Shown: piece by piece, positions 1 to 21,704 of the stretch
How the letters are laid out: each line of letters opens with the position of its first letter
Numbering within the stretch: position 1 is the first letter of the stretch
Origin: Candidatus Poribacteria bacterium
GTDB taxonomy: Bacteria > Poribacteria > WGA-4E > PCPOR2b
DNA length: 64,000 nt
Reading direction: 5' to 3'
Assembly (NCBI GenBank): GCA_003635265.1
Contig: PYIZ01000034.1
Coordinates: 124,001-188,000, forward strand
Made by a program: the position numbers and the translations under genes
Notes under the pieces: model-generated
The model's input: only the letters and a program-made list of their open reading frames with translations
What the model was told of the DNA's origin: nothing
The model's database searches: none

Positions 1-512
1 GCATCCTGTTTGAGACGGAGTTGGGGGACAAAGAAGCTATGAATAACATCCTCAGCGGTAAGTCTGATATGCACCACCTCGTTAACGGGAACATGCAGTT
101 GATTCTCAAGTTCCAAGTCATCGTCAGTGCCCCATTCGCCATCAGGTCCCGGGTAAGTCATATCCCAGTTAAATTGTTTTCCACTTACTTGAACTACTGC
201 CCCCGGATTACCGGGAAATTGGGAGGGGAATTTAATTTTGTTCCATTGTGGCAGACTCAACATTGCAAGTCCAAACACAATGACGGTGGTAGCAGCAGTC
301 CACGTAATTTCAAGGGTTGTGCTACCTTCAATGTACTCGGCTTTGCGACCTTCTTGGAAACGGTACTTAATAATGAAGACGATGAGTACCGCCATCACAG
401 CCAAAAATACAATTGAGGTAATCCAGTAGATTAGGATAAAGAGGTTATCCACCCCTTGTCCAAAAGTTGAGACATTCTCTGGAAGCCATGCAGGAAAATT
501 CAGCCAATTCAT
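1..512 (-). CDS. ctaC: Cytochrome c oxidase subunit II, N-terminal part (cut by window start)
   Basis: This is the membrane-anchored subunit that takes electrons from cytochrome c into a heme-copper oxidase. I translated the minus strand by hand from the ATG at 512. The reading frame stays open to base 1, giving 170 codons. It has two N-terminal hydrophobic segments (about residues 20-45 and 65-85), then the periplasmic start with QFNWDMTYPG and the hallmark DVIHSFFVPQLRLKQD. The binuclear CuA ligands (Cys-x3-Cys-x3-His) would lie past the window edge, so I cannot say whether CuA is present. A strong ribosome site, AAAGGAG, sits 7 bases before the ATG. It is the last visible gene of the respiratory cluster and follows the ABC permease by 44 bases. 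Confidence 0.93.
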   Translation of the reverse strand, partial: MNWLNFPAWLPENVSTFGQGVDNLFILIYWITSIVFLAVMAVLIVFIIKYRFQEGRKAEYIEGSTTLEITWTAATTVIVFGLAMLSLPQWNKIKFPSQFPGNPGAVVQVSGKQFNWDMTYPGPDGEWGTDDDLELENQLHVPVNEVVHIRLTAEDVIHSFFVPQLRLKQD

Positions 513-556: not shown

Positions 557-1351
557 TTATGCTACATTCGGACGACGGTATGCCGTTCGAGCAGCACCAA
601 AGTACGTTATAACACAGAACGCGCCGGTAACAAGTAGCGACAACGTGAGTTGAGGAATCTCCTCAGAGACTATAGATGCGTTGAAGTATAGACAACGACG
701 CAAGGCTGCAACCCCATAGGTGAGCGGATTTAACTTCATCACCCATTCAAGCAGTATCGGTACGCCAGATACGGGGAAGAAAGCACCGGAGAGCAGCCAG
801 ACCGGAATAAGAATAAGATTCATAATCGCATGGAAGCCCTGCGTTGAGTCCATTCGCCACGCGATCATTAATCCTAAGTTTGTTAAGCCAAAGGACAAGG
901 TCAACATCACACCGAGTGCTGAGAGTAAGGAAAAGGGGCTTAATGGCACCCCCACTATCGGTGCGAGAAACAGAAAAAGGGCGCCCTGCAAGAGTGCTAA
1001 CGTTGTGCCGCCAAGTGCTTGTCCCAGCACGATCACCCATCTTGAAACTGGGGCAACAAGTACACCTTGAAGAAAACCCTCTCGACGGTCTTGGACAACC
1101 GAAATTGTCGCGAAAATTGCTGTAAACAGTAGTGCAAGCGTGATGATACCGGGGTAAAAATATTCGATGTAGCTTGTTCCTTCAGGAACGCCGGGCGGAT
1201 TAAATGAGGCGTTCAACCCACTCCCTAAAAGCAGCCAAAAAATCAATGGTTGTGCAATCGCGCTCACCAGACGGCTCCGTTGACGTAGAAATCGGATGAT
1301 TTCACGCCACCAAATCGTCGCCACAGGGAGTAGAAATCTTGATATTGACAA
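557..1351 (-). CDS. ABC-2 type transporter permease
   Basis: Membrane half of an ABC exporter, 264 residues. It shows about six hydrophobic segments and the ABC-2 layout: an amphipathic N-terminus (WWREIIRFLRQRSRL), then QPLIFWLLLGSG, and a late LIPVWLLSGAFFPVSGVP stretch typical of this family. The start is a TTG codon 8 bases after the stop of the ATPase gene, so the two are almost certainly co-translated. Family members export drugs, lipids, polysaccharide, or take part in oxidase or copper-site assembly (NosFY-like). The position between a cupredoxin gene and cytochrome oxidase subunit II makes a role in oxidase biogenesis plausible, but this is inference from context only. Confidence 0.88.
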   Translation of the reverse strand: MSISRFLLPVATIWWREIIRFLRQRSRLVSAIAQPLIFWLLLGSGLNASFNPPGVPEGTSYIEYFYPGIITLALLFTAIFATISVVQDRREGFLQGVLVAPVSRWVIVLGQALGGTTLALLQGALFLFLAPIVGVPLSPFSLLSALGVMLTLSFGLTNLGLMIAWRMDSTQGFHAIMNLILIPVWLLSGAFFPVSGVPILLEWVMKLNPLTYGVAALRRCLYFNASIVSEEIPQLTLSLLVTGAFCVITYFGAARTAYRRPNVA

Positions 1352-1359
1352 AGTTCGGT

Positions 1360-2322
1360 TTAGTGCGTTTCAGTGCGGCTGCTTTCTAATCCCACTGAAT
1401 CTTGACTGGAGCCATTTTCCTCAAAGCGACGTCCCGTTAACTTGATGAAAACATCTTCCAATGTCGGCTTTCCAAGACGCACCGATTGAATTTCGGTCGG
1501 GAACGCAGCGACAACATCTCGAACGAATTCATGTCCGTTGTGGCATTCGATTCGTAGCAGTCCTTCAATAGAAGCTGTCGCATACCCAAACCTTTGGTTG
1601 ATTTTCGGTGCTAGCTGTTCAGGTTCTGGAGAATCAACGATGACAATATCTCCACTGACCTGATCTTTCAGTTCGTCCGGTGTTCCGATGGCAACCAATT
1701 CCCCCGCGTTGAGAATCGCCACACGGTCACACGCTTCGGCATCCTCCAAAATGTGGGTTGTCAGGACAACCGTTGTGTTTCTCAAGCCATTCAAATATGC
1801 CCTGAGACTTCGGCGCGCCCCGGGATCAAGTCCAGTGCTTGGTTCATCTAATAGCAGGACTTTCGGGTGATGAAGGGTCGCCTTTGCCAACTCCGCGCGC
1901 CTTTGTAGCCCACCAGAGAGTGTTTCCACACCCTCGTGAGCGCGATCAGTCAGTTCAAATTGGTCGAGCGCCTCTTGGATTCGCTGCTTCAGCGGCTTAC
2001 CCTGTAGCCCGTATAGGTGACCCTGATGTCGGAGATTCTCCGTGACCGTCAGTTTTAGATCTAAACTCGGACGCTGAAAAACCACACCCAGATACTGCCT
2101 AACACGCTGCACTCCATTGCCAAGCTCATGACCAAGAATATTGACCGCAGCCTGATCAACCGGAATCAGGGTAGAAAGTATCTTAAAGAGTGTGGTTTTA
2201 CCGCTGCCATTTGGGCCAAGAAACCCAAAGACTTCCCCTTGTGAGATGCTAAAGGTTACATCTACAAGTGCCTGCCGAGCTCCGTAAGCGTACGACAGAT
2301 TCTCGACCTTGATAGGGAACAT
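1360..2322 (-). CDS. ABC transporter ATP-binding protein
   Basis: Nucleotide-binding subunit, 320 residues, pairing with the permease that follows. Visible motifs are Walker A GPNGSGKT at residues 36-43, the Q-loop glutamine near 83, the signature LSGGLQRR at 135-142, Walker B VLLLDEP at 155-161 and the switch histidine in TTHILEDAE near 190. After the core domain there is a C-terminal extension of about 90 residues (DUF4162-like, ending LEDVFIKLTGR), typical of ABC-2 ATPases of the DrrA/CcmA/NatA type. A GAGGGAAG ribosome site precedes the ATG, and the preceding cupredoxin gene stops only 14 bases upstream. The exported substrate cannot be read from the sequence. Confidence 0.93.
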   Translation of the reverse strand: MFPIKVENLSYAYGARQALVDVTFSISQGEVFGFLGPNGSGKTTLFKILSTLIPVDQAAVNILGHELGNGVQRVRQYLGVVFQRPSLDLKLTVTENLRHQGHLYGLQGKPLKQRIQEALDQFELTDRAHEGVETLSGGLQRRAELAKATLHHPKVLLLDEPSTGLDPGARRSLRAYLNGLRNTTVVLTTHILEDAEACDRVAILNAGELVAIGTPDELKDQVSGDIVIVDSPEPEQLAPKINQRFGYATASIEGLLRIECHNGHEFVRDVVAAFPTEIQSVRLGKPTLEDVFIKLTGRRFEENGSSQDSVGLESSRTETH

Positions 2323-2336
2323 CTTCCCTCAATTGC

Positions 2337-3116
2337 TCATTTTAACGCGAGTGTAAAGTCCTGTGTAACTGCCCCTCCAGCTTCAACAGTAACTGAAACG
2401 GGTGCGTCTTTATTTGAGCCACACGCTTCCTGCCAATAACCTAACTGATAGGTGCCCGGCGGAACATTCTCAAGCGTATATTTCCCGTTCTCGTCGGTGA
2501 CGGCAAAATACGGATGGGGGATATATGCAATCCATGCCTGCATCCAACCGTGGACATCACATTTAACGTTTACGGGTCCTTCTGCCTTCTTCACCGCCTT
2601 AACATTCATCTTTCGTCTGGTTCCCGGCTGCGATTTATTAAATGCGGCATTCACCGAACTAAAGATATGAACGTTATGGTTGATTCTGTCGGGATTAATC
2701 ATGGTCAATCGTTTTCCAACAGGAAGGAGACGCACATGTGGATCAAATTGGCATCCTTTCTGGTCCATTTCGTATTTAGCATCGCTTGGAAAATCCGCTC
2801 CTGATGAGATATCCATCAAGTAAACGATAGTGTTTTTCAGACCATTTCCCTCACCAAGAACAATCGACTCATCATGCTTGTCGGTTTTACCACACACTTG
2901 TGCGTCTTTGGTAATTTCCAGTTTCTTCATCTCAGGTGCGGCACCGTCAAATTTGACCATCCCACTGATAGTACCACCATTAGAGACGCTCATTGCTTTA
3001 TAGGAAGCCGGGAAGACTAGCGATTCAACTTCTTCGTCTCCACCGGCAGCGGTGGCGCTAGCAACGTAAACACAGGCAATGAGTAGGGTTAAAATTGTAA
3101 CAACTTTGGTTTTCAT
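2337..3116 (-). CDS. Exported cupredoxin-like protein with carboxypeptidase-regulatory-like C-terminus
   Basis: Secreted, probably copper-binding protein of 259 residues. I place the start at the ATG at 3116 because AAAGGAG lies 8 bases upstream and a clean signal peptide (KVVTILTLLIACVYVASATAAG) follows; a longer reading frame to 3221 would translate repeat DNA. Near residues 180-230 a plastocyanin-like ligand pattern is visible: INHNVH, then KCDVHGWM, supplying His, Cys, His and Met. The C-terminus (YFAVTDENGKYTLENVPPGTYQLGYW) is a CnaB/carboxypeptidase-regulatory-like beta sandwich. It is a paralogue of the protein at 9430-10179, including the same two-part layout. In this cluster it could carry electrons from the cytochrome b complex to an oxidase; that role is inferred. 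Confidence 0.8.
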   Translation of the reverse strand: MKTKVVTILTLLIACVYVASATAAGGDEEVESLVFPASYKAMSVSNGGTISGMVKFDGAAPEMKKLEITKDAQVCGKTDKHDESIVLGEGNGLKNTIVYLMDISSGADFPSDAKYEMDQKGCQFDPHVRLLPVGKRLTMINPDRINHNVHIFSSVNAAFNKSQPGTRRKMNVKAVKKAEGPVNVKCDVHGWMQAWIAYIPHPYFAVTDENGKYTLENVPPGTYQLGYWQEACGSNKDAPVSVTVEAGGAVTQDFTLALK

Positions 3117-3290
3117 TTTTGAACTCCTTTTGGAATTATTGTTGAAACAGGCTAATAAGTGAAACGTGATACGTGACAACAATTTGTTGACAGGTTCATG
3201 GGTTTTAATGTTGGGTTTCACTAGATTGGGACAATACCTCTTTGTCGAGGTTATGATAGTTTCCTAAATCTCAAGCCAACAGTCTAATTC

Positions 3291-5027
3291 TTATGTATTC
3301 TGCCTTCTCCTGACGCTATTTCTCAAACCGAAAAGGAGACCGACAGAGATTAAGGCAATCAGTGGCGGATAGACAAATCGCTTGTTTGATGGAACGGGAT
3401 CGAGTACGAATGTGTACCACGTTGAAATAGCGCGCTTCGTTTTTACCTCGCCATTCGAGCCATCCCATGCAGAAAAAGCGATGGGTATAAACACGCCCGG
3501 TGTAAACTGCACGTCATTTCTTTTATCATCGGTTGTGAGCGATCTTTTTATCCATAATTGATATTGCCCATCTTTGTAAACTCCTTCAGCCTGTATCGGG
3601 CTTTGGTCAGATTGGACGGTCGCTGTATTGATCCCCTTCGCAGTCATTTCTGTAACTGTTGTTGGTTCAGCAACCTTCCAACTCCAGAGATAGACGGGAC
3701 GATTGCGATCACCATAGATAAAGTAGGGTTTCGGATCCGTCGGACCTTCAGAAATTTTCACCGGAAATTGAATTGCTAAGGCATCTTCAACCGTTTCTCC
3801 GGTCTCGTCATCCGTCTGGGGCAGGGTTTTCGTGCGATCATCCCATGTGAAGCGAAAAGCGATTTCATTATCGTTATAGAACGACTTTGCCATTACTGAA
3901 TCAATCGAGGGATTGAATTGTCGAGGGTCGATAACAATTTGACCGACCAGTGGGAAATAACTGGTTTCTTCAATTTCATTCCACGCTTCATCGTTCATGC
4001 CCGGCAACGCCCCGGCACGATATTGTGAGCGTAGCACTTTGTCACCAACCGCCGCTTGTGGTCGCTCTTCAGGCCCTAAGGATTTTACATAGTTTGCCAG
4101 ATGCCAACTTTTCTCAAAAATCGGCTTCAGGGCTGTATCGAGTTTAGTCTGTTCATCAGGCTCAAGTTCCTCACCTTCTTCAACTTTGAGCATGATGTCC
4201 TCAAACATGAATAACTTTTCTTCAAGCTCCGCGTATTCTTCCTCTTCTGCCTCTGAAAGACCGTCGTTATCCATTTTGAGCTCTAGCTCATTCATACGAG
4301 CCGATTCCTCATCTGTCAGACCGAGCCGGAAACTTGAGATAAATGAGGGCATTGGCGACCCAGCGATACCACCGATGAATCGCTTGAAGATATCCTCAGT
4401 TGTCGAACCGCCCCGATAGTTCCACTGTTCCCAAAGATTGGCGGGCCATGTGCGAAACCCCCACTCATCCGTAAGATCTGGCGCAGACGTGCCATCGCCC
4501 CTGCCAACTACTCCGTGGCAATCGACACACCCAAGATTAGTGTAAAATTCCTTTCCTTGTGCGACACTCTCTTCAGAATATGGGACTTTACCCGACACAT
4601 CAATTAACCGCGGTGAAGCCCCTTCAAAGCCGTCGTAGAATGTCTTGATATGGGCAACGAGTTGCCAACGTTGATCCTCACTCAGAAGTTCGCTCCAAGC
4701 TGGCATTGAAGATCCCGGCATACCGTTTGATATGATGTCAAAGAGATCCTGATCGGTGGGAAGTTGAGCACTTTCCGTCGAACGGATTTTGTAGAGGCCC
4801 CGCGTGAAATCTCTCGGTCTCGGCAACAGGTTTTCTGCCGCAGATCCATCGCCTGCGCCCTCTATACCGTGGCAGTGTGCACACTTGTCATCGTAGAGTG
4901 CCTTTCCTTCTTCGGAGGCTGCGGGTGCCTGTTTCCCTTGGGCAAGAACTGTAATTGGAAAAACCGCTAACAACAAAATAAGACCGGCGACTGAAATCAA
5001 CATTGTATTATAGGATTGATTTTTCAT
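3291..5027 (-). CDS. Diheme cytochrome c with ethylbenzene-dehydrogenase-like heme b domain
   Basis: Exported, membrane-anchored electron carrier of 578 residues. After a signal segment come two cytochrome c domains with CAHCH and CVDCH heme sites, then an unusual Asp/Glu-rich, probably coiled-coil stretch of about 60 residues. The second half resembles the heme b-binding gamma subunit of ethylbenzene dehydrogenase and its relatives (DALAIQFP, PYFIYGDRN, FIPIAFSAWDG, KRAISTWY). A transmembrane helix and a basic tail close the protein. The start is the ATG at 5027, preceded by GGAAGGA. It lies 24 bases downstream of the next cytochrome gene. No molybdenum catalytic subunit is encoded nearby, so the domain probably relays electrons here; this is inference. 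Confidence 0.86.
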   Translation of the reverse strand: MKNQSYNTMLISVAGLILLLAVFPITVLAQGKQAPAASEEGKALYDDKCAHCHGIEGAGDGSAAENLLPRPRDFTRGLYKIRSTESAQLPTDQDLFDIISNGMPGSSMPAWSELLSEDQRWQLVAHIKTFYDGFEGASPRLIDVSGKVPYSEESVAQGKEFYTNLGCVDCHGVVGRGDGTSAPDLTDEWGFRTWPANLWEQWNYRGGSTTEDIFKRFIGGIAGSPMPSFISSFRLGLTDEESARMNELELKMDNDGLSEAEEEEYAELEEKLFMFEDIMLKVEEGEELEPDEQTKLDTALKPIFEKSWHLANYVKSLGPEERPQAAVGDKVLRSQYRAGALPGMNDEAWNEIEETSYFPLVGQIVIDPRQFNPSIDSVMAKSFYNDNEIAFRFTWDDRTKTLPQTDDETGETVEDALAIQFPVKISEGPTDPKPYFIYGDRNRPVYLWSWKVAEPTTVTEMTAKGINTATVQSDQSPIQAEGVYKDGQYQLWIKRSLTTDDKRNDVQFTPGVFIPIAFSAWDGSNGEVKTKRAISTWYTFVLDPVPSNKRFVYPPLIALISVGLLFGLRNSVRRRQNT

Positions 5028-5050
5028 TGTTTTTTCCTTCCGCTCCAATC

Positions 5051-5830
5051 TTAATGCGCCGCCTCACCGAACGTCCTGGGTCGATATCCTGTGTACTCGG
5101 ATAGGAAGAGGATTACATCCCAAATCTCCTCCTCTGTCAGATGGTCTTCCCAGACCGGCATGGCAGAATCCCACGGGGTCGCAGCCGGCGGTAGACCGGG
5201 ACCTCCCTTACTAATACGCCAGAAGAAGAAGGATTCCTGAAAGTTTGGAATAATTCCAGGATCCTGAAAGTTTGCAGGCGGTGGGTTGAAACCGTGTGCG
5301 AAATGTCCCTCGCCATCAAGGTCATCGCCGTGGCAGTAGAAGCAGTTCTGATAATAGACTCGACGTCCATTCTCTACATGCGCCTTAAATGCTTCCTTGT
5401 CATCTTTCTCAAGGTGCCGGAAGGGGTTTTCCACCTGTTGCGTAGGACCTATAACCTTCTCGCGGTAGGTGAGTTCATCGGGTGGCGCCGGATGGGCAGT
5501 GCGCAGCGCAGCCGGTGGATCTGCTTTTGTCGACATCTCGGAAAAGGTTAAACCAAGCATAACCAAAGGAATAAGGACGAATAGTACAGTGCATCTTGTC
5601 CTTCTGTTATCATCAGCCAGAGTCTCTTTGATAGGGCGTAGAAATTCTCGAAACCTGTCATCTTCGACGGATACGTGAACCAGAATCGCCAATAGAATAA
5701 GCCCCAGATACATTGAGATCACGCTGACAGGCAACGGTACAGACCACACACCACCGATGAAGAATCTTAAAAAGAGCCAAAGCACAACAAATATAATCAG
5801 GCATTTTGTAAAAAGGGATAATTTTTGCAT
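5051..5830 (-). CDS. Membrane-bound monoheme cytochrome c
   Basis: Cytochrome of 259 residues with three N-terminal hydrophobic segments (about residues 7-25, 30-52 and 82-98) followed by a periplasmic c-type domain with one CFYCHG heme site. A possible distal methionine lies in SAMPVWEDHLTEEEIWDVI, the usual cytochrome c class I ending. AAGGAG precedes the ATG. The gene is set tightly between two other cytochrome genes (16 and 23 bases), so the three are probably one transcript with the CydA-like oxidase gene upstream. Its likely job is to deliver electrons to, or form part of, that oxidase. The heme site is directly visible; partner assignment is inference. Confidence 0.87.
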   Translation of the reverse strand: MQKLSLFTKCLIIFVVLWLFLRFFIGGVWSVPLPVSVISMYLGLILLAILVHVSVEDDRFREFLRPIKETLADDNRRTRCTVLFVLIPLVMLGLTFSEMSTKADPPAALRTAHPAPPDELTYREKVIGPTQQVENPFRHLEKDDKEAFKAHVENGRRVYYQNCFYCHGDDLDGEGHFAHGFNPPPANFQDPGIIPNFQESFFFWRISKGGPGLPPAATPWDSAMPVWEDHLTEEEIWDVILFLSEYTGYRPRTFGEAAH

Positions 5831-5846: not shown

Positions 5847-7343
5847 TTATTCGGCGGTTTCCTCTGCTTCTTCAGCTGCTGTTGCGGCTGTAGCACCCGT
5901 TAAGCTTGCTAGATAGGCGAGTAGATCGCTCATATCCGAAACCGATAATAACAGCGGAAAGTTATTCGGCATCGGGGAAGTTACAACCAGTCGCTTACCA
6001 AAAGCACGGCTGTAGGTCGGTCCTTCGTCGATATCGAATGTATCAATGATCTGCTCCTCACCATCAACGATTAAGGTGACTTCGTCCTCATTCTCCGACA
6101 CCAACTCCCCGACGATAACATTCTCATCGAAGTCAATCAACGTCGCTTGAACTTTCACATTCGACTTGGAAACTATTTGGGATTCTCCATCCACCTGAAG
6201 CGTAATGCTTTCGTCGGTCTCTTCTACGAAATCCCCACTTATGGTGGCTCCTGTGTCGGCAAGCGTTACTTGAATCCAGAAGTATCCTTTCCCTGTCAGA
6301 TCTGTCAACTCTTCAATCGGCTCCGGATCAAGGTCGCTCAATAGAATAGCGCGCTCTTCTTCGTTACCGGCAGCGTCCTTAACGCGCACGTTAATTTCCT
6401 CATTATCTTGCGTAACAAGTGTCCCTTGAATTATGGCACCGCCGGTTTTCACCGTAATGGAACCGTATCCGCTCACAATTTGTGCATTCGGTAATAGGAC
6501 AGATTCCTCAATATACCGGAGGCTGTTTACCGCAGCGATATCCGTCAATTCGGGTGCAGCGACAACTTCAACACCTTCATCAAGCGTTTGACCGGCAGGT
6601 TGCTCTACGCCAGCAACAGCGTGACAGGCGATACACTTCGCACCTTCTACGAAAACCTTTTTACCCCGTTCAACGTCGCCGGTGAGTAAGGGTGGCTGTT
6701 CCTCCACGATAGCTTCCGCGCTGCCAATATCAACGGGCGGCTTAAACTCTGTTATATCCACTTCACCGCCCTGACTCTGAAGGAAGGCGATGACGGTTTC
6801 GATTTCCAACTCAGTTAGACTGATTGGTGGTTTCCAGACCGGCGGCATAATGTTGCTGTAGCCGGGGACGAGGAATTTGTGGGGTTCATAGGTGGATTCG
6901 ATGAGATACTCCTTCGCAGTCATCCCCGGTTGGCGTGTCGCAGCGTGAGTACCAATATCCGTTAAATCGGGACAGCGACTTTTTGGCGCAGATGGATCAA
7001 GTGTATGGCAGGTGTTGCATTTTCCTTTTCCGTTAAAGATCGCCTCTCCGGCTTCGACAAACACCTCCGGTGTCCGCTCTGTAATCACTACTGTTGCAGT
7101 CGATGTTTCTGGCACAATGCTGGCAGCAAATGCATAGAACCAGATAACCATCAACGCAAATGACAGGAGTTTGACCACGCTCTGCCAAAGTATAATATTC
7201 GCTAAGGCAAAGATGAAAAACCACGTTGACCACGGCAGCAGGTTTTCCGAAGCGATCGGGAAAGCCGGTGCTTTCGCGATATAGGCGATAAAACTCACAA
7301 CCATTAAAATTAAGGATATAATTCTAATTAGTTTTCTTTGCAT
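5847..7343 (-). CDS. Membrane-bound diheme cytochrome c with repeated beta insert
   Basis: Cytochrome of 498 residues with two or three N-terminal membrane helices and two c-type domains (CNTCH near residue 112 and CIACH near 240). The first domain has its methionine in NIMPPVWKPP. The second is split: its heme site and its distal methionine (SPMPNNFPLLLSVSDMSDLLAYL) are separated by roughly 180 residues. That insert holds three related beta-rich segments of the pattern G-x-x-x-G-x-x-V-x-E-x-x-x-x-I-x-L-x-V-D-G-E. A single segment of this sort is known in the Planctomycete/Verrucomicrobium-type heme-binding domain; three copies is more than I would expect. The Ala/Glu-rich tail is probably disordered. 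Confidence 0.85.
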   Translation of the reverse strand: MQRKLIRIISLILMVVSFIAYIAKAPAFPIASENLLPWSTWFFIFALANIILWQSVVKLLSFALMVIWFYAFAASIVPETSTATVVITERTPEVFVEAGEAIFNGKGKCNTCHTLDPSAPKSRCPDLTDIGTHAATRQPGMTAKEYLIESTYEPHKFLVPGYSNIMPPVWKPPISLTELEIETVIAFLQSQGGEVDITEFKPPVDIGSAEAIVEEQPPLLTGDVERGKKVFVEGAKCIACHAVAGVEQPAGQTLDEGVEVVAAPELTDIAAVNSLRYIEESVLLPNAQIVSGYGSITVKTGGAIIQGTLVTQDNEEINVRVKDAAGNEEERAILLSDLDPEPIEELTDLTGKGYFWIQVTLADTGATISGDFVEETDESITLQVDGESQIVSKSNVKVQATLIDFDENVIVGELVSENEDEVTLIVDGEEQIIDTFDIDEGPTYSRAFGKRLVVTSPMPNNFPLLLSVSDMSDLLAYLASLTGATAATAAEEAEETAE

Positions 7344-7370
7344 CGCTCTCGTCCCAATTGTGTTTGATTG

Positions 7371-9194
7371 TTAATCATCCCCTGCGGAGGCTTCGGCTTC
7401 AACGGGTGGCTCTCCCTCTTTTTTCTTATCGCCCCACAAGCCGAGCCAAAAAATAAAACCTACCAAAGCGAAGAAAATCACTATAATAACGGCAATCATG
7501 TTAACGGCATCTGCAAGCAGCGGGGTGTGTGCATCCGGCGAGGTATCAGGCATTACACCGAAAATATGCCACGCCTCTCGAAGTCCCGACCGTGCGTAAC
7601 CCATCAGTCCCATCAGTGAGGTGAAGGTAATGGCGAGTAGAATCAGCACATATTGAGACCGGTCTGTCATTTGTCCCCAGTTGATTTCGCTTGAACGCAT
7701 CGCCTTTCGATACATAATTAGGTCAATCACTGTCACCACAATCATGACCGCTAACGCGACCAGCACTTGTATTGGCGTTAGGACATTGACACGGAAGTCA
7801 GTGTTCACCTTGAACCCTACGATTCCAATTGTAACAATTGCTGCGACAGCTAGCCCAAAAGTAACTGCGATGATGATATTGCCCGCTTTGCGCCAAGTCA
7901 CTGTCGGTGTTTTACCGGATCGACGGTAAAACAGAAAGCTAAGAAAGGTGGTCAAGATAATGAGATTGACAACCGTGTTTTTCGCTGTCATCAAGCCGAA
8001 AAGTCCAACCAGCGGGTGATTGGGTCCTCCCATTGCAGCCAACTCCGTAGGCGTCACAATGAGTGTGCGCGGCGTCATCCAGATTGCGACAGATAGAACG
8101 ATGATAGCGATCATGTAGGGACGAAAACGGGCGTATACCTCCCCGCCTGCGATGCGGGTCATGCCAGACCAGAGATAATAATTCGCTCCGATGAACAGCA
8201 CCCCAATCATCACCGCCTGAATGATGAACAGCCACGAGAAGAGGCTTCCCATCATGTTGATGCCCATCGTTTGGTTGAACATATAAATTTCTCGTCCCAG
8301 CCAATATCCGGCAAATGGCAGCGGAATCAGTCCACACAGCGCGATAAAATTGCCCGTATATCCCATCCAGTCGTAATGCGCCCTATCTTCCTGCGTTTTG
8401 GCAGCCAAGAAACGAAATGCGGCATAAGCACCGACGATTGCACCGCCGAAAGCGATATTCCCAATGAGGCGGTGGATATTGACAGGCATCCACGTATAAT
8501 TATTGATTGCCTGCCACAGTGTCCCGATAAATGCACCCGACTCATCATGGAGTGGAATTGCCTCGTGGGCGGGTTTGGGTCCCATAATCGCTGGACTGGT
8601 TTGGTATGTCAGCCAAGCGTTAGAGACGAACATAATCGCTGTACCGAATACATTCAGGAGCACACCGAGAAATAGGTGCCACATTTTCGACACCCTGCCC
8701 TGCATCCGATCCCACCCATAAGAATAGAGATAGAGCGTAAAAGTCTCTCCAAAGAACAGGATGACGTAGAAAATCATTGACGGACCGAAGATCCCTGACA
8801 GTTTGTTCATCACCTTCGGGTAGCACCAGATGAGGATAAAAACAAGTACCCCGCCCATCAAGGCAGTCGTTGAGAACGCTCCCATACACAGCTTGATGAA
8901 CTCCTGTGCCATCTTATCATACCGTTTGTCCTTCGTTTTCATCCCGACAAACTCAATGACAACCGCAAACATCGGAACGCCCAAGATGAAGGAACCGAAC
9001 AACAGATGCAGCTGGGCAGCAATCCAAGCAGCGTTGCGGCTGCCGATCCCCGGGAAGGGACGGTACTCTGTGTCGGTCGCATCTTGAGCGAAGACAGTCG
9101 CAACCGTCAGCAGCAGATACATAGCAAGTAGAGCGAGAAGAAAATATAGCCTGTTTTTGGACTGGCTCATATTGAGATGTTTGGTGAGATACAT
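7371..9194 (-). CDS. CydA-superfamily oxidase subunit lacking the quinol (Q) loop
   Basis: Polytopic membrane protein of 607 residues with about 14 hydrophobic helices. By eye it aligns with CydA of cytochrome bd: His63 (AQLHLLFG, like His19), Glu150 with following GWDRM (FFGETFTLYLYSYGWDRM, like Glu107), NAWLTYQTSPA near 192-202, His241 (NIHRLIGN, like His186) and Met329 (QAVMIGVL, like Met393). The helix carrying GYWLGRE (296-302) runs almost directly into the next helix, so the large quinol-binding loop of bd is missing, and the later GRQPW motif is not seen. No CydB gene is adjacent; three c-type cytochrome genes are. It may therefore be a cytochrome c-linked bd relative (families called OR-C/OR-N). 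The ATG at 9170 is an alternative start. Confidence 0.82.
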   Translation of the reverse strand: MYLTKHLNMSQSKNRLYFLLALLAMYLLLTVATVFAQDATDTEYRPFPGIGSRNAAWIAAQLHLLFGSFILGVPMFAVVIEFVGMKTKDKRYDKMAQEFIKLCMGAFSTTALMGGVLVFILIWCYPKVMNKLSGIFGPSMIFYVILFFGETFTLYLYSYGWDRMQGRVSKMWHLFLGVLLNVFGTAIMFVSNAWLTYQTSPAIMGPKPAHEAIPLHDESGAFIGTLWQAINNYTWMPVNIHRLIGNIAFGGAIVGAYAAFRFLAAKTQEDRAHYDWMGYTGNFIALCGLIPLPFAGYWLGREIYMFNQTMGINMMGSLFSWLFIIQAVMIGVLFIGANYYLWSGMTRIAGGEVYARFRPYMIAIIVLSVAIWMTPRTLIVTPTELAAMGGPNHPLVGLFGLMTAKNTVVNLIILTTFLSFLFYRRSGKTPTVTWRKAGNIIIAVTFGLAVAAIVTIGIVGFKVNTDFRVNVLTPIQVLVALAVMIVVTVIDLIMYRKAMRSSEINWGQMTDRSQYVLILLAITFTSLMGLMGYARSGLREAWHIFGVMPDTSPDAHTPLLADAVNMIAVIIVIFFALVGFIFWLGLWGDKKKEGEPPVEAEASAGDD

Positions 9195-9347
9195 TGGTTT
9201 TTCTCTGTCACTCCAGACTTAATATCGAGGCTCATGCCAAAAGCAAATGATAGACACTAGGGACGTGAAACGTAAAAACAATTTGTGCATTGGTTCATTA
9301 GTATCCGACCTGCGGGGTTCATACAAGAAAGTGTAGAACGCCTAGAG

Positions 9348-9402
9348 AAACCGAGTTTTGAAGTCCCGCTCGTCCCGATTCTCGGGATCCCGACTTGTCG
9401 GG
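9348..9402. repeat. Cluster of short inverted repeats
   Basis: This intergenic stretch between the second cupredoxin gene and the oxidase gene contains three short elements. AAACCGAGTTTT at 9348-9359 is the same 12-mer that forms one arm of the hairpin at 12238-12267. TCCCGATTCTCGGGA at 9373-9387 is a palindrome, and CCCGACTTGTCGGG at 9389-9402 is a second one directly after it. A similar element, TCCCGATTTATCGGGA, lies at 15999-16014. They look like a dispersed intergenic repeat family rather than terminators, since no T-tract follows on either strand. Confidence 0.6.
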
Positions 9403-9429
9403 ACGTGGATGCTCGACGAGTCGGCAATG

Positions 9430-10179
9430 TTACTTCTTCTTGAAATCGGCACTGGTAAAGCTAATCTCTACGTCTCCGTCTGCAACTTCGACAACTTGGG
9501 CTTTGGTCTCTCCAAGCTCCTCGTGCCATGCTATAGCTCGGTATCTGCCAGCGGGAACATCTTTAATCATGTAGGCCCCCGTATCGCTCGAACCTTCGTA
9601 AGCGTCAGAGCTGATCCATTTGCCGTCTTTGTCTTTATATCCTGTTACAGCGTAATAGTCATTGTCTGTGACAAAGATATATCCGGTCATCCAGTTGTGG
9701 ATATCGCAGGTGAACTTAATCGCTTCACGCTTTTCCAATTTGAGAGGTAACATTTTACCGGGACCCGGTATTTGCCAATTCGGCGCCTCGTTCTTCGTAG
9801 CGTGGGAATGGACGTTATGTGCAACAGGGTCGCTGGAGGTGACATCCACTGTGGTCCCTGCGGTCACAACGAGGACATGCGGATAATACATACAATCTAC
9901 CTGATCCATGACTGGATTTTTGGCGGGAATTGTTGGCTTCGCGCCTCGTGCCCGTAGGTAGACAACGACGTTTTTAATTCCTTTGCCTTTGGAGACCACA
10001 AGGGCTTCAGATTTGCCACTTTTCAGAGAATCGACACAGTGCTGGTCTTTGGTCGCTTGCAAAGCTGGACGTGCTGGCGCGTCCCCATCATACATAACCG
10101 TTCCGGAGATTGTGGCGGCATAGGTCAGGCTAGCGATGAGCATAAAACTGAAGACAATCAGAGTTATTGCGGTTTTCAT
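9430..10179 (-). CDS. Exported cupredoxin-like protein with carboxypeptidase-regulatory-like C-terminus (paralogue)
   Basis: Secreted protein of 249 residues with a clear signal peptide (MKTAITLIVFSFMLIASLTYA). It shares layout and motifs with the protein at 2337-3116: ATISGTVMYDGDAP at the start, a conserved Cys in KDQHCVDS, a cupredoxin core with VAHNVHSH and FTCDIHNWMTG (His, Cys, His, Met ligands of a type 1 copper site), and a C-terminal segment GAYMIKDVPAGRYRAIAWHEELG like a CnaB/carboxypeptidase regulatory domain. An AAAGGAT ribosome site precedes the ATG. It lies just upstream of the CydA-like oxidase gene. A soluble electron carrier to that oxidase is the natural hypothesis, but copper binding is predicted only from ligand spacing. 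Confidence 0.82.
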   Translation of the reverse strand: MKTAITLIVFSFMLIASLTYAATISGTVMYDGDAPARPALQATKDQHCVDSLKSGKSEALVVSKGKGIKNVVVYLRARGAKPTIPAKNPVMDQVDCMYYPHVLVVTAGTTVDVTSSDPVAHNVHSHATKNEAPNWQIPGPGKMLPLKLEKREAIKFTCDIHNWMTGYIFVTDNDYYAVTGYKDKDGKWISSDAYEGSSDTGAYMIKDVPAGRYRAIAWHEELGETKAQVVEVADGDVEISFTSADFKKK

Positions 10180-13739: not shown

Positions 13740-14114
13740 CTAATCATGCGTCGGCGTTGGTCGAAAAGTCTCTTTGATAAACTCGAACAGTTCTCGCTGT
13801 TCTTCATCGGTTAAGTAGTAAAAAAATGCCGGCATATCGTCCTTGCCGGCATCAATACTGTGGATAAATTGTTCGTCGGTACGGCCCTCCCAAAATTCGG
13901 TTGTCGTTAGATTTGCGGGGTCTAGCTTTTTGAACCGTCCAATCCGTCCATTGCCTTCACCGTTCGCACCGTGACAACCGGCACAATATCTTGCGTAATT
14001 GTACTCGACTTCGGAGCCGTATCGCGTGCTGGGATCTACCGCCCGACAGAGCCAAATCAGCCAACTCATGCTAGCGGCAAATATCCCAACGATGATGAGA
14101 AGGTGTCGAATCAT
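13740..14114 (-). CDS. Small monoheme cytochrome c
   Basis: Class I cytochrome c of 124 residues with an N-terminal hydrophobic segment (HLLIIVGIFAASMSWLIWL) that can serve as signal or anchor. The heme site is CAGCHG near residue 44 and the likely distal methionine is in KDDMPAFFYYLTDEEQRELFEFI. GGTGGGAT precedes the ATG. It lies 37 bases downstream of the symporter gene, within the respiratory cluster, and is the smallest c-type cytochrome here. It is a candidate mobile carrier between the cytochrome b complex and the oxidases; the specific partner is inferred. Confidence 0.88.
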   Translation of the reverse strand: MIRHLLIIVGIFAASMSWLIWLCRAVDPSTRYGSEVEYNYARYCAGCHGANGEGNGRIGRFKKLDPANLTTTEFWEGRTDEQFIHSIDAGKDDMPAFFYYLTDEEQRELFEFIKETFRPTPTHD

Positions 14115-14151
14115 TTGAACGATCCCACCTTTGCTATTCGCATGATTCTAC

Positions 14152-16039: not shown

Positions 16040-19000
16040 TTACTCACCTAACGAGTTGAGATAATCTCTCACTAGCCGGATCTGTTCTTCGGCATCATCG
16101 ACTGCAAAGCCATCAACGGGTTGATATGCGCCGCCGATCTTGGGCCAAGCTTGGGGCATTGCAGTTCCCGGCTGGAAGGATTGCGGGTCTTTGAGCCAAT
16201 CAATGACCCAATCAGCCTTGAGACGCCCCTTCGCTAGCGCGAGGTCGGGACGTCCGGTCTTATCGCTGCCCGGTGGGATAATTTCGCCCTGTTCCGGATG
16301 GCAGGAGATACACTGGAGTGCGTCAAAGATCTGTTTGCCGACACGGAGCTCCCTTCGAGAAGCCGGTTGCAACGCGATCGTCTCATACGGGAACACTTCA
16401 TCGTCAAGCGCAGAGAAGTATTTGACAAGCGCAGTCGCCTCGTCGTCCGCGAGACCGAAAGTCGGCATCCGAACTTCAAGTCCGTAGCGGATAGGAGTCG
16501 GTGCTTTGAGGAATTCAAACAACCACTCCGGATAGACCTTAGCACCTTGCGCTTGTAGGGTAGGCGGGGCAAAGCGCTTGGCATTCAGCAGGTCTAGTTC
16601 TTCATTGGCGGCAACCACATTCACGAAATCACCACCTTTTCCTTCAATTTCATGGCAGCCGGTGCAGTTATATTTTTTCGCCAACCGGCGCCCATCATCA
16701 ATCTGCCGCGTCTTTTCGCTCGGCTGGTGGATATAGCTCACCGGGTATTTTTCAGGCTGGAAGCTCTTGAGCAGAACAGCAAGGGCGCGTGCATCCTCCT
16801 CACCGATAGTATGTTCACTAAAGACGGGCATTCGGGAGACAATACGACGCGTTTGATAGCGTCTTGGATTGGTTATTTTTCCGATTGTCCAGCCGTGCCA
16901 ACTGTGTTCGATATCTGTCGTATCTCCAAAGTCTAGTTCGTCAGCTATCTTGGCACCAAATTCACCGAGGTCCGCGCCGACCTTCGACTCATTCTCGAAG
17001 CCGGGGATATTGTGGCAGCCGAAGCAACCGTAGGTTCGCACTAGCTTTTCGCCTTCCATCGGATCAACCGCTGCGTGGGGATTTTCGTTACCGGCAATAG
17101 GAGAGGTTGCCGTCTCTTGCAACGACATCAGGTAGGCAACCGAGTTGTCCACTTCGGTCTTGGTCAGACGCAGACTGGGCATTACGGTGTCGGGGTCGTA
17201 AGATCTTGGATCACTGATCCATTGACGAAGAAATTGTGGTGTGAGCTTGCTGCCGACATTATCCAATTTTGGTGCGAAGTCACTTCCGAGTCCGTCAACC
17301 GCATGGCACGACAGGCAGCCAACAGATTTAACAACCTCTTCTCCGGCGGCAATCGCACGGGGGACTGTCGAGTATGAGGTATCGCCTTGATCTATCGCTG
17401 GATCTTTCATCTGCGCCAAGTATGCCGCAATTGATTTAACCTCGTCGACAACCCGCTCAACGGCGGTGTCAGGATAGGGATATTTTGTACCATCGTCCTT
17501 TTGGAGGATAATGCCGGTGTCGGTTTTGGTGACGACGCCGTAGTGCTTATTTCCATTTTTGAGATAAACGGCTTGGGTCAACTTTTCGACAGGGAAGAAA
17601 TTTGGCATTTTGGTCTCTGGTAGATAGGCGGTCGGCTGTTTAATCCATCCTTCCAACCAATCCACGCTGTTAACTTTACTACCGACTTTGGCAAGCGATG
17701 GACCAACTTTGTCGAGATCCCCTAACACGGAATATCCCTCAACAGCATGACAGCCGTGACACCCAATATCCTCAAACAGCGCCATCGCCTTCGAAAGGAC
17801 CGGCGCATAATCTTGGAGCTGCCCGGTTTCTGGATTGGGAGCGTCTAGCACCATCACGCCATCGTGGCACCGACGACAGTTGGACTCCATGTAACCGTGC
17901 AATTCTTCCGAGGCTTTGCCGGTGTGCTCATCCAACCCCAATACAGGCGTCAGCCAAAACTCTTTTTTGTGGTCTAGGGCGTGTGCGGCTTTTTGGGTCA
18001 GACCTTGGCCCTGTCCGCCGTGGCAGGGTGTGCAGCCAAATCTTTCGACGGGATGTTTGCCGAGAAGCACATCGCGGTGCGGATGCGTCTGAAGCACCGG
18101 ATCATATCCAGTCTCATACGCGATTTCCACGATGTCGGCATAAACGTCGGGATCGGTGAAGGTTAATGTGCCATTTTCGCTCAGTTCATAGCTACCCTCT
18201 TCGGCATCTTCTTCATCAATCAGCACCGTTTCGTTACCCGTTTTGATGTAGGGGTGTTTTAATTGAAGTGTCAGCAGGCTTTCGCCGTCCCCTTCAATTT
18301 CCTCAAACTGCTCTTCGGCATATCCGTCGTATCCTGCTTTGTCTGAAGCAAAGTGGCAGGTCGCGCATCGGTCTGCTGTATAATCAAAATCTTCGATGTA
18401 GTATTGCACAACCGTGCGGGTCTTTGTAAAGGGACTTTCTGCCAGTGTGCCGATGAAAGTGCGCTTAATACCACCAACGGAATGGAGTTTCTCCTCCAGT
18501 CTGTCAACGGCAGTGTATTTCTCTTTATCCGCTTTCGCATCCTCAATTTTCGCCTGAAGTTCACTAATCTTTGTCGGAATTATTGTGTCAGCAGCGTTAT
18601 ACTTCCGAACGAGGAGATATTCAGCTAAGGCAGCCTCAACGTGTCCGTTGGTATCATAAAATTCAGCGAGATCTTTATAAGCAGCGGCAAGGTTTTGCTC
18701 CGCCGCGAGTACTGCATCCGTTAGTTCTCCTTCAATTCGACTCTCAAACTCATCTAATTTCTTTTTCCATTTTTCCGCTTTTTCTGTTTCCCCGTGGTGC
18801 AACGCATACTGATATTTATAGTTGATTGCATCCGACTCGCTCTGGTCAAATTTACGATCCTGTAAGGCTTCGTCTAGCTTAATCTGCAACCCCCAAATCG
18901 CATCTTTTAGCGTCTTCTCCTGTTTAGGGTCAATTTCTTGAGGTGCTTCAACTTCAGGCAGATCTTGTTTCGCTGTTTCTAACTCGATCTTGGTTTTCTG

Positions 19001-19165
19001 ATATTCGTATTCGTAGAATTGCCGCTGAATCTCCTTCCATGGCCGCCTAGTAATTGTTTCGTTATAGAAACCCCACAACGTAACGAACCCTAGCAACCCA
19101 GAAAGGATAAAAAATAGTGCTGCGTAAGATTTTTCCTCAACCCGAACTTCTTTATTGCTCCTCAC
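16040..19165 (-). CDS. Octaheme cytochrome c with N-terminal membrane anchor and coiled coil
   Basis: Large periplasmic cytochrome of 1041 residues, probably the c-type partner of the cytochrome b/Rieske genes upstream. One membrane helix (about 14-33) is followed by a charged, helical, probably coiled-coil region (50-230). Eight heme sites follow: C267-H271, C378-H382, C430-H434, C469-H473, C617-H621, C714-H718, C834-H838 and C952-H956. The last five sit in class I cytochrome domains with SxMP or TxMP distal methionines (for example near 521, 663, 780, 901 and 1011). A beta insert like that of the 5847-7343 protein lies between hemes 4 and 5 (530-570). The start is GTG at 19165. It appears to replace cytochrome c1. 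Confidence 0.9.
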   Translation of the reverse strand: MRSNKEVRVEEKSYAALFFILSGLLGFVTLWGFYNETITRRPWKEIQRQFYEYEYQKTKIELETAKQDLPEVEAPQEIDPKQEKTLKDAIWGLQIKLDEALQDRKFDQSESDAINYKYQYALHHGETEKAEKWKKKLDEFESRIEGELTDAVLAAEQNLAAAYKDLAEFYDTNGHVEAALAEYLLVRKYNAADTIIPTKISELQAKIEDAKADKEKYTAVDRLEEKLHSVGGIKRTFIGTLAESPFTKTRTVVQYYIEDFDYTADRCATCHFASDKAGYDGYAEEQFEEIEGDGESLLTLQLKHPYIKTGNETVLIDEEDAEEGSYELSENGTLTFTDPDVYADIVEIAYETGYDPVLQTHPHRDVLLGKHPVERFGCTPCHGGQGQGLTQKAAHALDHKKEFWLTPVLGLDEHTGKASEELHGYMESNCRRCHDGVMVLDAPNPETGQLQDYAPVLSKAMALFEDIGCHGCHAVEGYSVLGDLDKVGPSLAKVGSKVNSVDWLEGWIKQPTAYLPETKMPNFFPVEKLTQAVYLKNGNKHYGVVTKTDTGIILQKDDGTKYPYPDTAVERVVDEVKSIAAYLAQMKDPAIDQGDTSYSTVPRAIAAGEEVVKSVGCLSCHAVDGLGSDFAPKLDNVGSKLTPQFLRQWISDPRSYDPDTVMPSLRLTKTEVDNSVAYLMSLQETATSPIAGNENPHAAVDPMEGEKLVRTYGCFGCHNIPGFENESKVGADLGEFGAKIADELDFGDTTDIEHSWHGWTIGKITNPRRYQTRRIVSRMPVFSEHTIGEEDARALAVLLKSFQPEKYPVSYIHQPSEKTRQIDDGRRLAKKYNCTGCHEIEGKGGDFVNVVAANEELDLLNAKRFAPPTLQAQGAKVYPEWLFEFLKAPTPIRYGLEVRMPTFGLADDEATALVKYFSALDDEVFPYETIALQPASRRELRVGKQIFDALQCISCHPEQGEIIPPGSDKTGRPDLALAKGRLKADWVIDWLKDPQSFQPGTAMPQAWPKIGGAYQPVDGFAVDDAEEQIRLVRDYLNSLGE

Positions 19166-19218: not shown

Positions 19219-20085
19219 CTAGATATTGAACCACGGAGTAACCCAGATGTACTTGATATTCAATGTCCACCGAAGAATCATCTTGATTGGCAAAGCCATC
19301 ATCGTCAAAAACAGGAATGAGACAACGATGTAGCGTACCAATCCCAACTCTTGGAGAAATTTGCTCGTTCCTTTCTTCAAAAAGTAGTAGATGGGGCCCA
19401 GAGCAAAATATCCGACGACAACACACATCCCGAAAATACCGGCGGGCTGTTCGTTTCGGATGCCGAATAGGTACGACAGGTTGACGTTGGTTAAGGGCAC
19501 AACCTTGTGCGGATCCCACTCTTTCCATGGGGCGAAAAAGTTCCAACCGGGTCCCCTCAAGAAGGTGCCAACGACCATTAGCACGATCCATAACACAAAA
19601 AAGCCGAAACAGAAGGTTATAAGTGCAAACGGACGCTCCTTCAGGGTATAGTAGCCTTTTCCTTTGGGATTGATATCTATATAGGGGATGGCGATTAAAC
19701 CGGCGATAATCAGCCCCGGCAACACAACACCTGCAATCCACGGATCAAAGTAGACCAACATCTCTTGTAGTGCGAGAAAGTACCATGGGGCTTTAGACGG
19801 GTTCGGGGTTACTGTTGGATCGCTCGGCTCTTCGAGTGGGGCATCAATGGTAATGGACCATATCCCCAGAACAAGCATTATGATGATTGCACAGAGAAAC
19901 TCATTGCGACAGAGGTAGGGCCAGCAGTAAACTTTATCGTTAAGCGCTGCTTCGGCGGGTGTGCCAGCTAGGTCATTTCTGCGCCCTTGGCTGAATGCAA
20001 GCCAAGTGAAGAAAGGCAACAACAACACGATTGCAACAATCGGAACATTATCAGGCTTCGTAATCAATAAGAGAAAGGGATCCAT
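19219..20085 (-). CDS. Cytochrome b C-terminal/subunit IV-like protein
   Basis: Membrane protein of 288 residues that would complete a split cytochrome b with the gene just upstream. It carries DPTVTPNPSKAPWYFLALQEMLVYF near residue 90, the subunit IV region that holds the quinol-site PEWY motif; here it reads APWY, so the glutamate is replaced. Several hydrophobic helices follow, more than the three of plastid-type subunit IV. The start is the ATG at 20085, which has GAGGTGG 5 bases upstream; the TTG at 20097 would bury it. It lies 39 bases after the cytochrome b stop. The changed glutamate may alter the quinol-oxidation site. Confidence 0.88.
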   Translation of the reverse strand: MDPFLLLITKPDNVPIVAIVLLLPFFTWLAFSQGRRNDLAGTPAEAALNDKVYCWPYLCRNEFLCAIIIMLVLGIWSITIDAPLEEPSDPTVTPNPSKAPWYFLALQEMLVYFDPWIAGVVLPGLIIAGLIAIPYIDINPKGKGYYTLKERPFALITFCFGFFVLWIVLMVVGTFLRGPGWNFFAPWKEWDPHKVVPLTNVNLSYLFGIRNEQPAGIFGMCVVVGYFALGPIYYFLKKGTSKFLQELGLVRYIVVSFLFLTMMALPIKMILRWTLNIKYIWVTPWFNI

Positions 20086-20124
20086 ATACCACCTCAATAA
20101 ATAGGGATTAAAATGAGTTCAGTC

Positions 20125-20898
20125 CTACAGGGGGCCAGAAATACCGCCGTCCTTGCGGACACGCCAGAAGTGTAGCGCCATCAACACGCTTGCCAAGAGT
20201 GGTACAGCGACGCAATGCAGGATGTAAAATCGCAAGAGCGTTGAGGGACCGACAATTGTCCCGCCAAGGAGGGCAAAGCGCACATCATTCGATTGGGTGA
20301 CGATATCCTGGGGGTGGAATGGACCTTCATGCCCTAAGACAGGTGTCGCACGCGCCATGTTTGTTCCAACGGTGACCGCCCAGAATGCAAGCTGATCCCA
20401 CGGTAGTAGGTAGCCGGTAAAGCTAAGGAAGAAGGTGACAAGCAACAGGATAACGCCGACACCCCAGTTAAATTCGCGAGGCTTTTTATAGGACCCGGTC
20501 AGGAAAACACGGAACATGTGAAGCATCACTGCGATGACCATGCCGTGGGCTGCCCAACGGTGCATATTGCGCAGGAGCATCCCGAATGGGATGTCGAACT
20601 CAAGATACTGAATATCACGGAACGCGTACTCTGCGGTGGGACGATAGTAGAACATCAACAACACACCTGTAACGGCGGTGACAAGAAACATCAGAAAGGT
20701 AATCCCGCCCATACACCATGTGAATCGGAAGTTAATCGCGTGGCGGGTAACGCGGGGAGGATGCAGATGGAGCCAGACATTTTGGAGGACTTGGAGGGTA
20801 TATCGTCTTCCTGTTTTCTCGTAGCCGTGGCGAAACATCGACTGCCAAATCTGGTTATTTGTGATTTTCTCTTTTAATCCATTACGTCTCTCATTCAT
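20125..20898 (-). CDS. Cytochrome b, N-terminal (b6-type)
   Basis: Diheme cytochrome b of 257 residues, the quinol-oxidising core of a bc/b6f-like complex. Four core membrane helices are visible. The first ligand pair is in LLRNMHRWAAHGMV and LHMFRVFLTG, the second in RFYILHCVAVPLLASVLMALHFWRV, with the usual histidine spacing. GYLLPWDQLAFWAV is the cytochrome b Qo-region signature, and the C-terminus RKDGGISGPL closely resembles the end of b6 proteins. The N-terminal 50 residues form a longer cytoplasmic extension than in b6. The Rieske gene is 163 bases upstream and the subunit-IV-like gene follows directly. Confidence 0.94.
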   Translation of the reverse strand: MNERRNGLKEKITNNQIWQSMFRHGYEKTGRRYTLQVLQNVWLHLHPPRVTRHAINFRFTWCMGGITFLMFLVTAVTGVLLMFYYRPTAEYAFRDIQYLEFDIPFGMLLRNMHRWAAHGMVIAVMLHMFRVFLTGSYKKPREFNWGVGVILLLVTFFLSFTGYLLPWDQLAFWAVTVGTNMARATPVLGHEGPFHPQDIVTQSNDVRFALLGGTIVGPSTLLRFYILHCVAVPLLASVLMALHFWRVRKDGGISGPL

Positions 20899-21061: not shown

Positions 21062-21550
21062 CTAAACCCTTAAAGAGGATCCCGCTTTCCCCCAATCGCC
21101 TCGCTCTTCCAGAAACTTTACGGACTTATCAATCTGCAGTTGTCCATCTTCCGCTAGCGTAATTTGCACGCGCTCAAGGGGTCTCGGCGCAGGTCCCTCA
21201 AAGTGCATCCCCTCACGGTCAAATCCGCTTCCATGACAAGGGCACTTAAACTTCTGTTCGGACGAAAGCCATCGGGGGGTACAACCGAGATGTGTACAGA
21301 TTGCCAACAGTGCGAAAAACTCGCCATCCTCTTTCCGAACAATCCAGACACCGAACGGATCTTTTTTGAACTTTTCGCTAACCGTTCCGGGAGGATATTC
21401 GCCGGGAAATCCAGCCTTGAAGACCGAAGATGGTTCAAAGAGGACTCGTGGGTATAAGAATCGGATCAATCCGGGACCAAAGGCAAGCCCGGTAGCAGCG
21501 AGGAAATTTCCCCAACCCAAGAACTTAAAAAATGAACGTCGTGATAGCAC
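21062..21550 (-). CDS. Rieske 2Fe-2S protein of a bc/b6f-like complex
   Basis: Iron-sulfur subunit of 162 residues that passes electrons from quinol to the cytochrome c side. The cluster motifs are CTHLGC and, 17 residues on, CPCHGSGF, which supply two Cys and two His ligands and the disulfide pair. I prefer the GTG at 21550, giving MLSRRSFFKFLGWGN with a twin-arginine signal and one anchor helix, because GAGGTGAA lies just upstream; the open frame reaches a TTG at 21571. It is the first gene of the cytochrome b complex set and of the whole minus-strand respiratory cluster. A 16-bp palindrome lies about 155 bases upstream. Confidence 0.93.
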   Translation of the reverse strand: MLSRRSFFKFLGWGNFLAATGLAFGPGLIRFLYPRVLFEPSSVFKAGFPGEYPPGTVSEKFKKDPFGVWIVRKEDGEFFALLAICTHLGCTPRWLSSEQKFKCPCHGSGFDREGMHFEGPAPRPLERVQITLAEDGQLQIDKSVKFLEERGDWGKAGSSLRV

Positions 21551-21704
21551 CAACTTCACCTCAAATTTCAAAGTTTGTGGAATTAAGTAAAACGGTATGT
21601 AATAAAGTAAAGGACACGATCCGAGTATTTTGATTGCAGTTCGTCAAATCGGCAGTCATTATAGCACGACACAAAACAGAGATCAAGGCATAAAATAAAG
21701 GGGT

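Follow-up and report, generated by a model that had tools for sequence, protein, structure and literature searches.

A bd-like protein at the head of a four-gene module

The window analysed in this study, a stretch of 64,000 nucleotides from a Candidatus Poribacteria genome (G000:C34:124001-188000), carries a gene for a relative of the cytochrome bd subunit CydA that lacks the quinol loop and is directly followed by genes for three membrane cytochromes c. The locus raises the question of what such a protein does, and with which electrons, in a cell that encodes an aa3-type cytochrome c oxidase only a few genes away. The bd-like gene heads a unit of four, in this order:

7371..9194, minus strand: bd-like membrane protein, 607 aa, intact open reading frame (PF01654; 36-sequence family alignment)
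5847..7343, minus strand: membrane-anchored diheme cytochrome c (PF00034, two CxxCH)
5051..5830, minus strand: membrane-anchored monoheme cytochrome c (PF13442/PF00034, one CxxCH)
3291..5048, minus strand: two cytochrome c domains (two CxxCH), an ethylbenzene-dehydrogenase-like (EB_dh; NxrC/DMSO reductase II gamma) domain and a C-terminal TM helix (PF00034 twice, PF09459, TIGR03477 at 94.9 bits)

A preliminary description, aligned by eye, had read the first product as a bd-oxidase relative, and profile searches bear this out: PF01654 (cytochrome bd subunit I) matched it with 64.7 bits, over residues 53-305 only, and was detected in 31 of 31 family members. Among solved structures, the convincing matches were canonical CydA chains only (E=2.7e-16), again over the first half, to which the relationship to CydA is confined; HMM-HMM comparison of the family with CydA of E. 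coli and others gave 99% probability there. The CydA-like N-terminal helices and the counterparts of His19 and Glu107, by which the cytochrome bd superfamily is broadly recognised, are all present. A very long branch separates the family from canonical CydA in our tree and, together with the absent Q-loop and CydB described below, supports the earlier placement outside the quinol oxidases.

Of the 73 genomes in its order, 67 have the gene; within the class, one genome from a different family has it too. Across nearly all sponge-clade Poribacteria, which span several families, the protein is 71-98% identical. Named relatives at 92-95% identity are Candidatus Poribacteria, many of which we take to be sponge-associated. 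It is the sole CydA homologue in its own genome (88% complete). Each sponge-clade genome has one module-type copy, other CydA matches there being canonical, and many poribacterial relatives also carry canonical CydAB elsewhere in the genome. The viral contigs searched held no relatives, and the plasmids searched gave canonical CydA-like matches only.

That three membrane cytochromes c directly follow the bd-like gene was also confirmed, with CxxCH counts of 2, 1 and 2. The last product resembles alt-NxrC_2 of Nitrospira, and within the sponge clade its TIGR03477 signature is essentially confined to the module. NxrC-type copies (L109 13892-15526, L111 and L112) share conserved Met and Lys residues in their EB_dh domain that are not kept in the module type, where the heme b of the domain may thus be lost or altered.

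Missing quinol loop and CydB

Quinol oxidases of the bd type need an essential Lys and Glu in the Q-loop between TM6 and TM7 (PMC8951039). A structure prediction built from 38 close relatives was poor (pLDDT 44), so we used only its rough helix pattern, together with hydropathy. This low-confidence topology comprises a cleavable-signal-like first helix and about 13 TM helices, and puts a very short stretch at the place of the Q-loop:

8268..8288, minus strand: residues 303-309, at the Q-loop place (predicted helices, HMM-HMM)

Helix 6 ends near residue 300 and the next helix starts near 310, which leaves about 9 residues in place of the approximately 140 of E. coli; the loop is thus missing, as had been proposed. 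The predicted fold has more helices than canonical CydA in the segment from TM6 to the GRQPW region. The bd-like protein of Nitrospina was described with 14 helices, some replacing the Q-loop (PMC3578206), and the topology predicted here (no Q-loop, extra helices, about 14 TM) agrees with that description. The partner subunit is missing as well. We found no PF02322 (CydB) match in the 88% complete genome, inside or outside the window, nor in the 98% complete genome of a member of the same genus (G001), in line with the absence of cydB noted earlier.

Residues at the heme and proton sites

Residue conservation was counted across 36 sequences, of which 26 do not belong to the sponge clade, at the following positions:

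9006..9008, minus strand: codon of His63, counterpart of E. coli His19 (HMM-HMM; 36/36)
8745..8747, minus strand: codon of Glu150, counterpart of E. coli Glu107 (HMM-HMM; 36/36)
8472..8474, minus strand: codon of His241, counterpart of E. coli His186 (HMM-HMM; 36/36)
8250..8252, minus strand: codon of Met315, invariant (36/36), candidate heme ligand at the periplasmic end of TM7
8208..8210, minus strand: codon of Met329, earlier proposed as a ligand, not conserved (M 13, L 21, I 1, V 1)
7989..7991, minus strand: codon of Met402, invariant (36/36), candidate heme ligand at the periplasmic end of TM9
7566..7589, minus strand: Ser536 (Glu445 position), degenerate GRQPW (GLREAW, 537-542) and invariant His543 (alignments)

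The pairing of His63, Glu150 and His241 with their E. coli counterparts, first made by eye, was reproduced by HMM-HMM alignment. Also invariant in all 36 sequences are Tyr143, Arg535, Arg539 and His543. Lys101 aligns (HMM-HMM) with E. coli Lys57; 27 of the 36 sequences have Lys there and 5 have Arg. Two of the ligands initially listed do not hold as such. The counterpart of Glu150, Glu107, is described as a proton donor and not as a heme ligand and is, with Lys57, an element of the published proton path to heme d (PMC13189123). Met329, put at the place of Met393, is Leu, Ile or Val in 23 of the 26 relatives outside the sponge clade; a residue this variable cannot be the heme ligand of the family, and we rejected it. 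Of the low-spin heme b558 ligands His186 and Met393, the former has its counterpart in invariant His241; for the latter, Met315 and Met402 are invariant candidates. In the predicted topology, the conserved redox residues are close to the periplasmic ends of helices.

A local alignment of the C-terminal region to CydA (67% probability; E=5e-5 for one comparison) pairs G537-L-R-E-A-W542 with GRQPW, a motif thought to be absent that is instead degenerate, and Ser536 with the b595 ligand, which we take to be Glu445 in E. coli numbering. At position 536, 32 of the 36 sequences have Ser and the other 4 have Glu, and HMM-HMM alignment puts Tyr143 at the position of Glu99. Among the canonical active-site ligands His19, Glu99 and Glu445, the first is thus kept as His63, with Tyr143 and, at the 67% probability of the C-terminal alignment, Ser536 at the other two. 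The b595 ligand is reported to be a strictly conserved Glu (PMC8951039). With both glutamates replaced and Met329 variable, the earlier statement that three hemes can bind in intact pockets is not established. What the alignments suggest is left of the canonical set is one gas-site histidine, one low-spin-site histidine and the proton path.

A respiratory neighbourhood

The module lies within a larger respiratory cluster, whose other members in the window are:

21062..21571, minus strand: Rieske iron-sulfur protein (PF00355)
20125..20898, minus strand: cytochrome b6-like (ExtP-like) subunit (PF00033; NF040969, 272.8 bits)
19219..20097, minus strand: cytochrome b C-terminal part (subunit IV / ExtQ-like; PF00032, NF040970)
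16040..19165, minus strand: 1041-aa multiheme cytochrome c of the Rieske/cytochrome b complex, conserved neighbour (PF00034, PF13442)
13740..14114, minus strand: small cytochrome c, conserved neighbour (PF13442)
9430..10179, minus strand: cupredoxin-like protein directly upstream of the bd-like gene, place conserved in about 45 poribacterial loci
2337..3221, minus strand: cupredoxin-like periplasmic protein between the module and the oxidase genes (weak amicyanin-like match)
557..2322, minus strand: ABC exporter pair (DrrAB/NatAB-like) separating module and cox genes, place conserved in Poribacteria (TIGR01188, TIGR01247)
1..512, minus strand: 5' part of coxB (CuA-type subunit II; PF00116), operon running on outside the window

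The poribacterial order, conserved as far as the contigs reach, is Rieske, cytochrome b6-like, subunit IV-like, multiheme c, small c, cupredoxin-like and bd-like, then diheme c, monoheme c, diheme c/EB_dh, cupredoxin-like and the ABC pair, and finally coxB, coxA, ctaA, ctaB, coxC, coxC, coxD and sco. The upstream cupredoxin-like product had no Pfam match above the cut-off. The coxB-coxA-ctaA-ctaB-coxC run extends beyond the window and can be followed in L026, where PF00116 and PF00115 match 8833-9513 and 6241-8088, respectively. By inspection, coxB carries a CuA site, CAELCGFGHSGM; with this site and a heme A synthase gene beside coxA, the operon directly downstream encodes an aa3-type cytochrome c oxidase, and the cell does not depend on the bd-like protein for O2 respiration. 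We also considered a missing complex III and rejected the idea, the Rieske/cytochrome b set being present in the same cluster.

In the window's genus, the cluster is interrupted by some transporter genes. The stretches 10940-13654 and 14152-15801 encode two Leu/Ile/Val-binding-like proteins and a dicarboxylate/glutamate-type transporter, the last of which is seen only in the closest relatives (L059-L062). In poribacterial family f4 (L119, L120), the Rieske/cytochrome b genes adjoin a divergent cox operon without the bd-like module, which offers a natural comparison.

The poribacterial module loci contained no nitrite oxidoreductase (NXR) alpha or beta subunits, and no NXR/NAR genes were found at the module in the sponge-clade genomes examined. 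Weak alpha-subunit-like matches in the window's own genome (C30), when checked, proved to be a selenocysteine-type formate dehydrogenase; the ORF (G000:C30 ~12000-15000, L032) has one in-frame TGA at the usual selenocysteine place (NCSRA-TGA-HAPTVAG).

Occurrence in other phyla

A profile search outside the phylum recovered relatives in 18 of the genomes searched. The four-gene order is kept in 19 of 24 loci from 12 families in other phyla, which supports the link to c-type cytochromes that had been drawn from the window. Five of these loci, from four families (G168, G144, G115 and G178/G316), run on into coxB-coxA, three of them (L167, L170 and L173) with a cupredoxin-like gene in between, at the same place as in Poribacteria. 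NXR-type genes occur in three loci (L109, L180 and L183). The first is from G065, a genome of the same class as the window, in which the bd-like homologue sits inside a full NXR-like cluster. The tree sets the sponge clade apart (100/100) and places G065 in an NXR-linked clade (100/100); it does not settle the deeper order.

In one family, three genomes that are nearly complete (G089, G237 and G376) encode two bd-like proteins each, a compact paralogue beside a module-type copy, and neither a heme-copper oxidase nor CydB was found in them. Compact paralogues (L184, L186, L187 and L188) lack the region of residues 436-500 and keep Glu at the Glu445 position, so these may be the real oxidases. 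Elsewhere, the four-gene module occurs twice in tandem, complete both times, in L172 (G287:C79:24000-43900), whose bd-like proteins are 47% and 38% identical to that of the window; L175 of the same genome holds a third module. Between the NXR-like genes and the bd-like module of L183, a single protein (4052-5770) has 16 CxxCH motifs.

Proposed function of the complex

Our preferred reading, held tentatively, is a cytochrome-c-fed reductase of O2, or of another gas, working beside aa3. O2 reduction is the single most likely activity, though one we would stop short of calling probable, mainly on account of the full or almost full conservation of the histidine at the gas site and of the proton path. 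We infer that the bd-like protein assembles with the products of the next three genes, the cytochromes c, and supplies the membrane core. Electrons would enter on the periplasmic side: the Rieske/cytochrome b complex would pass them to c-type cytochromes or cupredoxins, these to the diheme, monoheme and diheme/EB_dh subunits in turn, and the last to a low-spin heme on His241 with Met315 or Met402 as candidate partner. From there they would reach a heme on His63, where the gas, most likely O2, would be reduced with protons drawn from the cytoplasm via Lys101 and Glu150. The complex would thereby be a second, cytochrome-c-fed reductase alongside the aa3 oxidase. The published roles of Glu107 and Lys57 (PMC13189123), the conserved redox residues toward the predicted periplasmic side and a module order kept across 12 families, with five loci directly beside an aa3 operon, are all consistent with such a reductase. 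So are the three genomes with two bd-like proteins and neither heme-copper oxidase nor CydB, and the Nitrospira genomes without a heme-copper oxidase that are thought to respire via a bd-like protein (PMC6606698, PMC12342949). Against it, the module clade has Ser at the Glu445 place, where four compact paralogues keep Glu, and Tyr at that of Glu99; the aa3 oxidase already supplies O2 reduction; the terminal oxidase proposed for N. moscoviensis is bd-like_2, while the module resembles the bd-like_3 cluster; and anammox bacteria, which live anaerobically, retain that cluster (PMC6606698). The oxidase-lacking family could itself be anaerobic.

The loss of the b595 ligand and the aa3 oxidase encoded next door make a serious rival, which we consider less likely, of a protein that reduces no O2 and serves as a b-heme membrane anchor relaying electrons among the cytochrome c pool, the Rieske/cytochrome b complex and aa3. 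It might also exchange electrons with quinone in reverse, the bd fold being kept as a redox-linked proton device. The replacement of both glutamates, the position of the module, which is flanked by the Rieske/b complex and aa3 in Poribacteria and adjoins aa3 in four further families, and the proposal that the matching Nitrospira cluster serves as an NXR anchor or in reverse electron flow (PMC6606698, PMC3578206) fit such a relay. Yet the catalytic-side His63, Glu150 and Lys101 are retained, no quinone site is recognisable, and the Rieske/b genes of family f4 adjoin a different cox operon without the module, so a relay is not required. In our estimate it is rather unlikely that the unit is a non-oxidase bd-fold complex of many phyla, a cytochrome-c-fed proton device re-liganded through Tyr143, Ser536 and His543 that joins the Rieske/cytochrome b complex to aa3 and was later recruited by nitrite oxidisers and anammox bacteria. 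The residues able to separate an oxidase from a relay are His63, Tyr143, Glu150, His241, Met315, Met402, Ser536 and His543.

A cytochrome-c-fed reductase or scavenger of nitric oxide, or of another nitrogen oxide, would account for the relatives in NXR clusters, for the retention of the cluster by anaerobic anammox bacteria (PMC6606698) and for heme surroundings altered by Tyr143 and Ser536; we think it improbable, given that the module of the sponge-clade genomes examined has no NXR/NAR genes. Least credible of all, at a very low probability, is a decayed NXR cluster of little present function that lost NxrA and NxrB: the full cluster of G065 and the missing NxrC-type Met and Lys would suit it, but 71-98% identity across several families and a fixed gene order indicate strong constraint, and the tree separates the sponge clade from the NXR-linked clade that includes G065, on which ground we rejected the idea, prompted by L109, of an NXR cluster that lost its Mo enzyme.

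Comparison with known systems

With canonical CydAB (qOR) the protein shares a homologous first half, including the H19, E107 and H186 positions, and a degenerate GRQPW near the C-terminus; it differs in the missing Q-loop and CydB, in Ser and Tyr at the E445 and E99 positions, and in the extra helices before the GRQPW region. The cluster is reminiscent of alternative complex III in having multi-heme c subunits and a membrane part beside an oxidase operon, but its membrane subunit is unrelated, and none of the 20 genomes of the order examined (20/20) encodes an NrfD-type (ActC/ActF) protein. The bd-like family is said to have been described between 2010 and 2013 and classified by Murali and colleagues in 2021. 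The protein is likely to belong to the OR-N type, an assignment by match to published descriptions. Sources on this type (PMC10839748, PMC12342949, PMC13189123) give as common traits the lack of a quinol site and of CydB and an inferred cytochrome c donor, and the descriptions of Nitrospina and Nitrospira bd-like proteins fit the same placement (PMC3578206, PMC6606698, PMC10839748). OR-N1 and OR-N2 are proposed to pair as CydAA', whereas here there is one copy per cluster and one in the genome.

The four-gene unit is of a known, uncharacterised kind, matching gene by gene the bd-like_3/alt-NxrC_2 cluster of Nitrospira moscoviensis, Nitrospina gracilis and anammox bacteria (PMC6606698, PMC3578206). 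In N. moscoviensis, where this cluster is among the strongest transcribed, bd-like_3 is joined by a pair of membrane cytochromes of the c type and by alt-NxrC_2, which has one TM helix and two heme motifs; the cluster is conserved in Nitrospina and anammox bacteria (PMC6606698). Absence of the Q-loop, about 14 TM helices and cupredoxin-like neighbours are shared features. Unlike that cluster, the poribacterial module comes without the catalytic subunits of NXR, is flanked by a Rieske/cytochrome b complex on one side and an aa3 operon on the other, and forms a clade of its own, apart from the NXR-linked one. The bd-like/alt-NxrC_2 cluster has so far been read mainly as part of nitrite oxidation. 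Because no nitrite-oxidising enzyme was found with the poribacterial unit, its job cannot be nitrite oxidation alone, and a core respiratory module of fixed order without NXR, repeatedly beside aa3 in other phyla, shows a more general function. The new point is thus a role for this kind of unit that reaches beyond nitrite oxidation.
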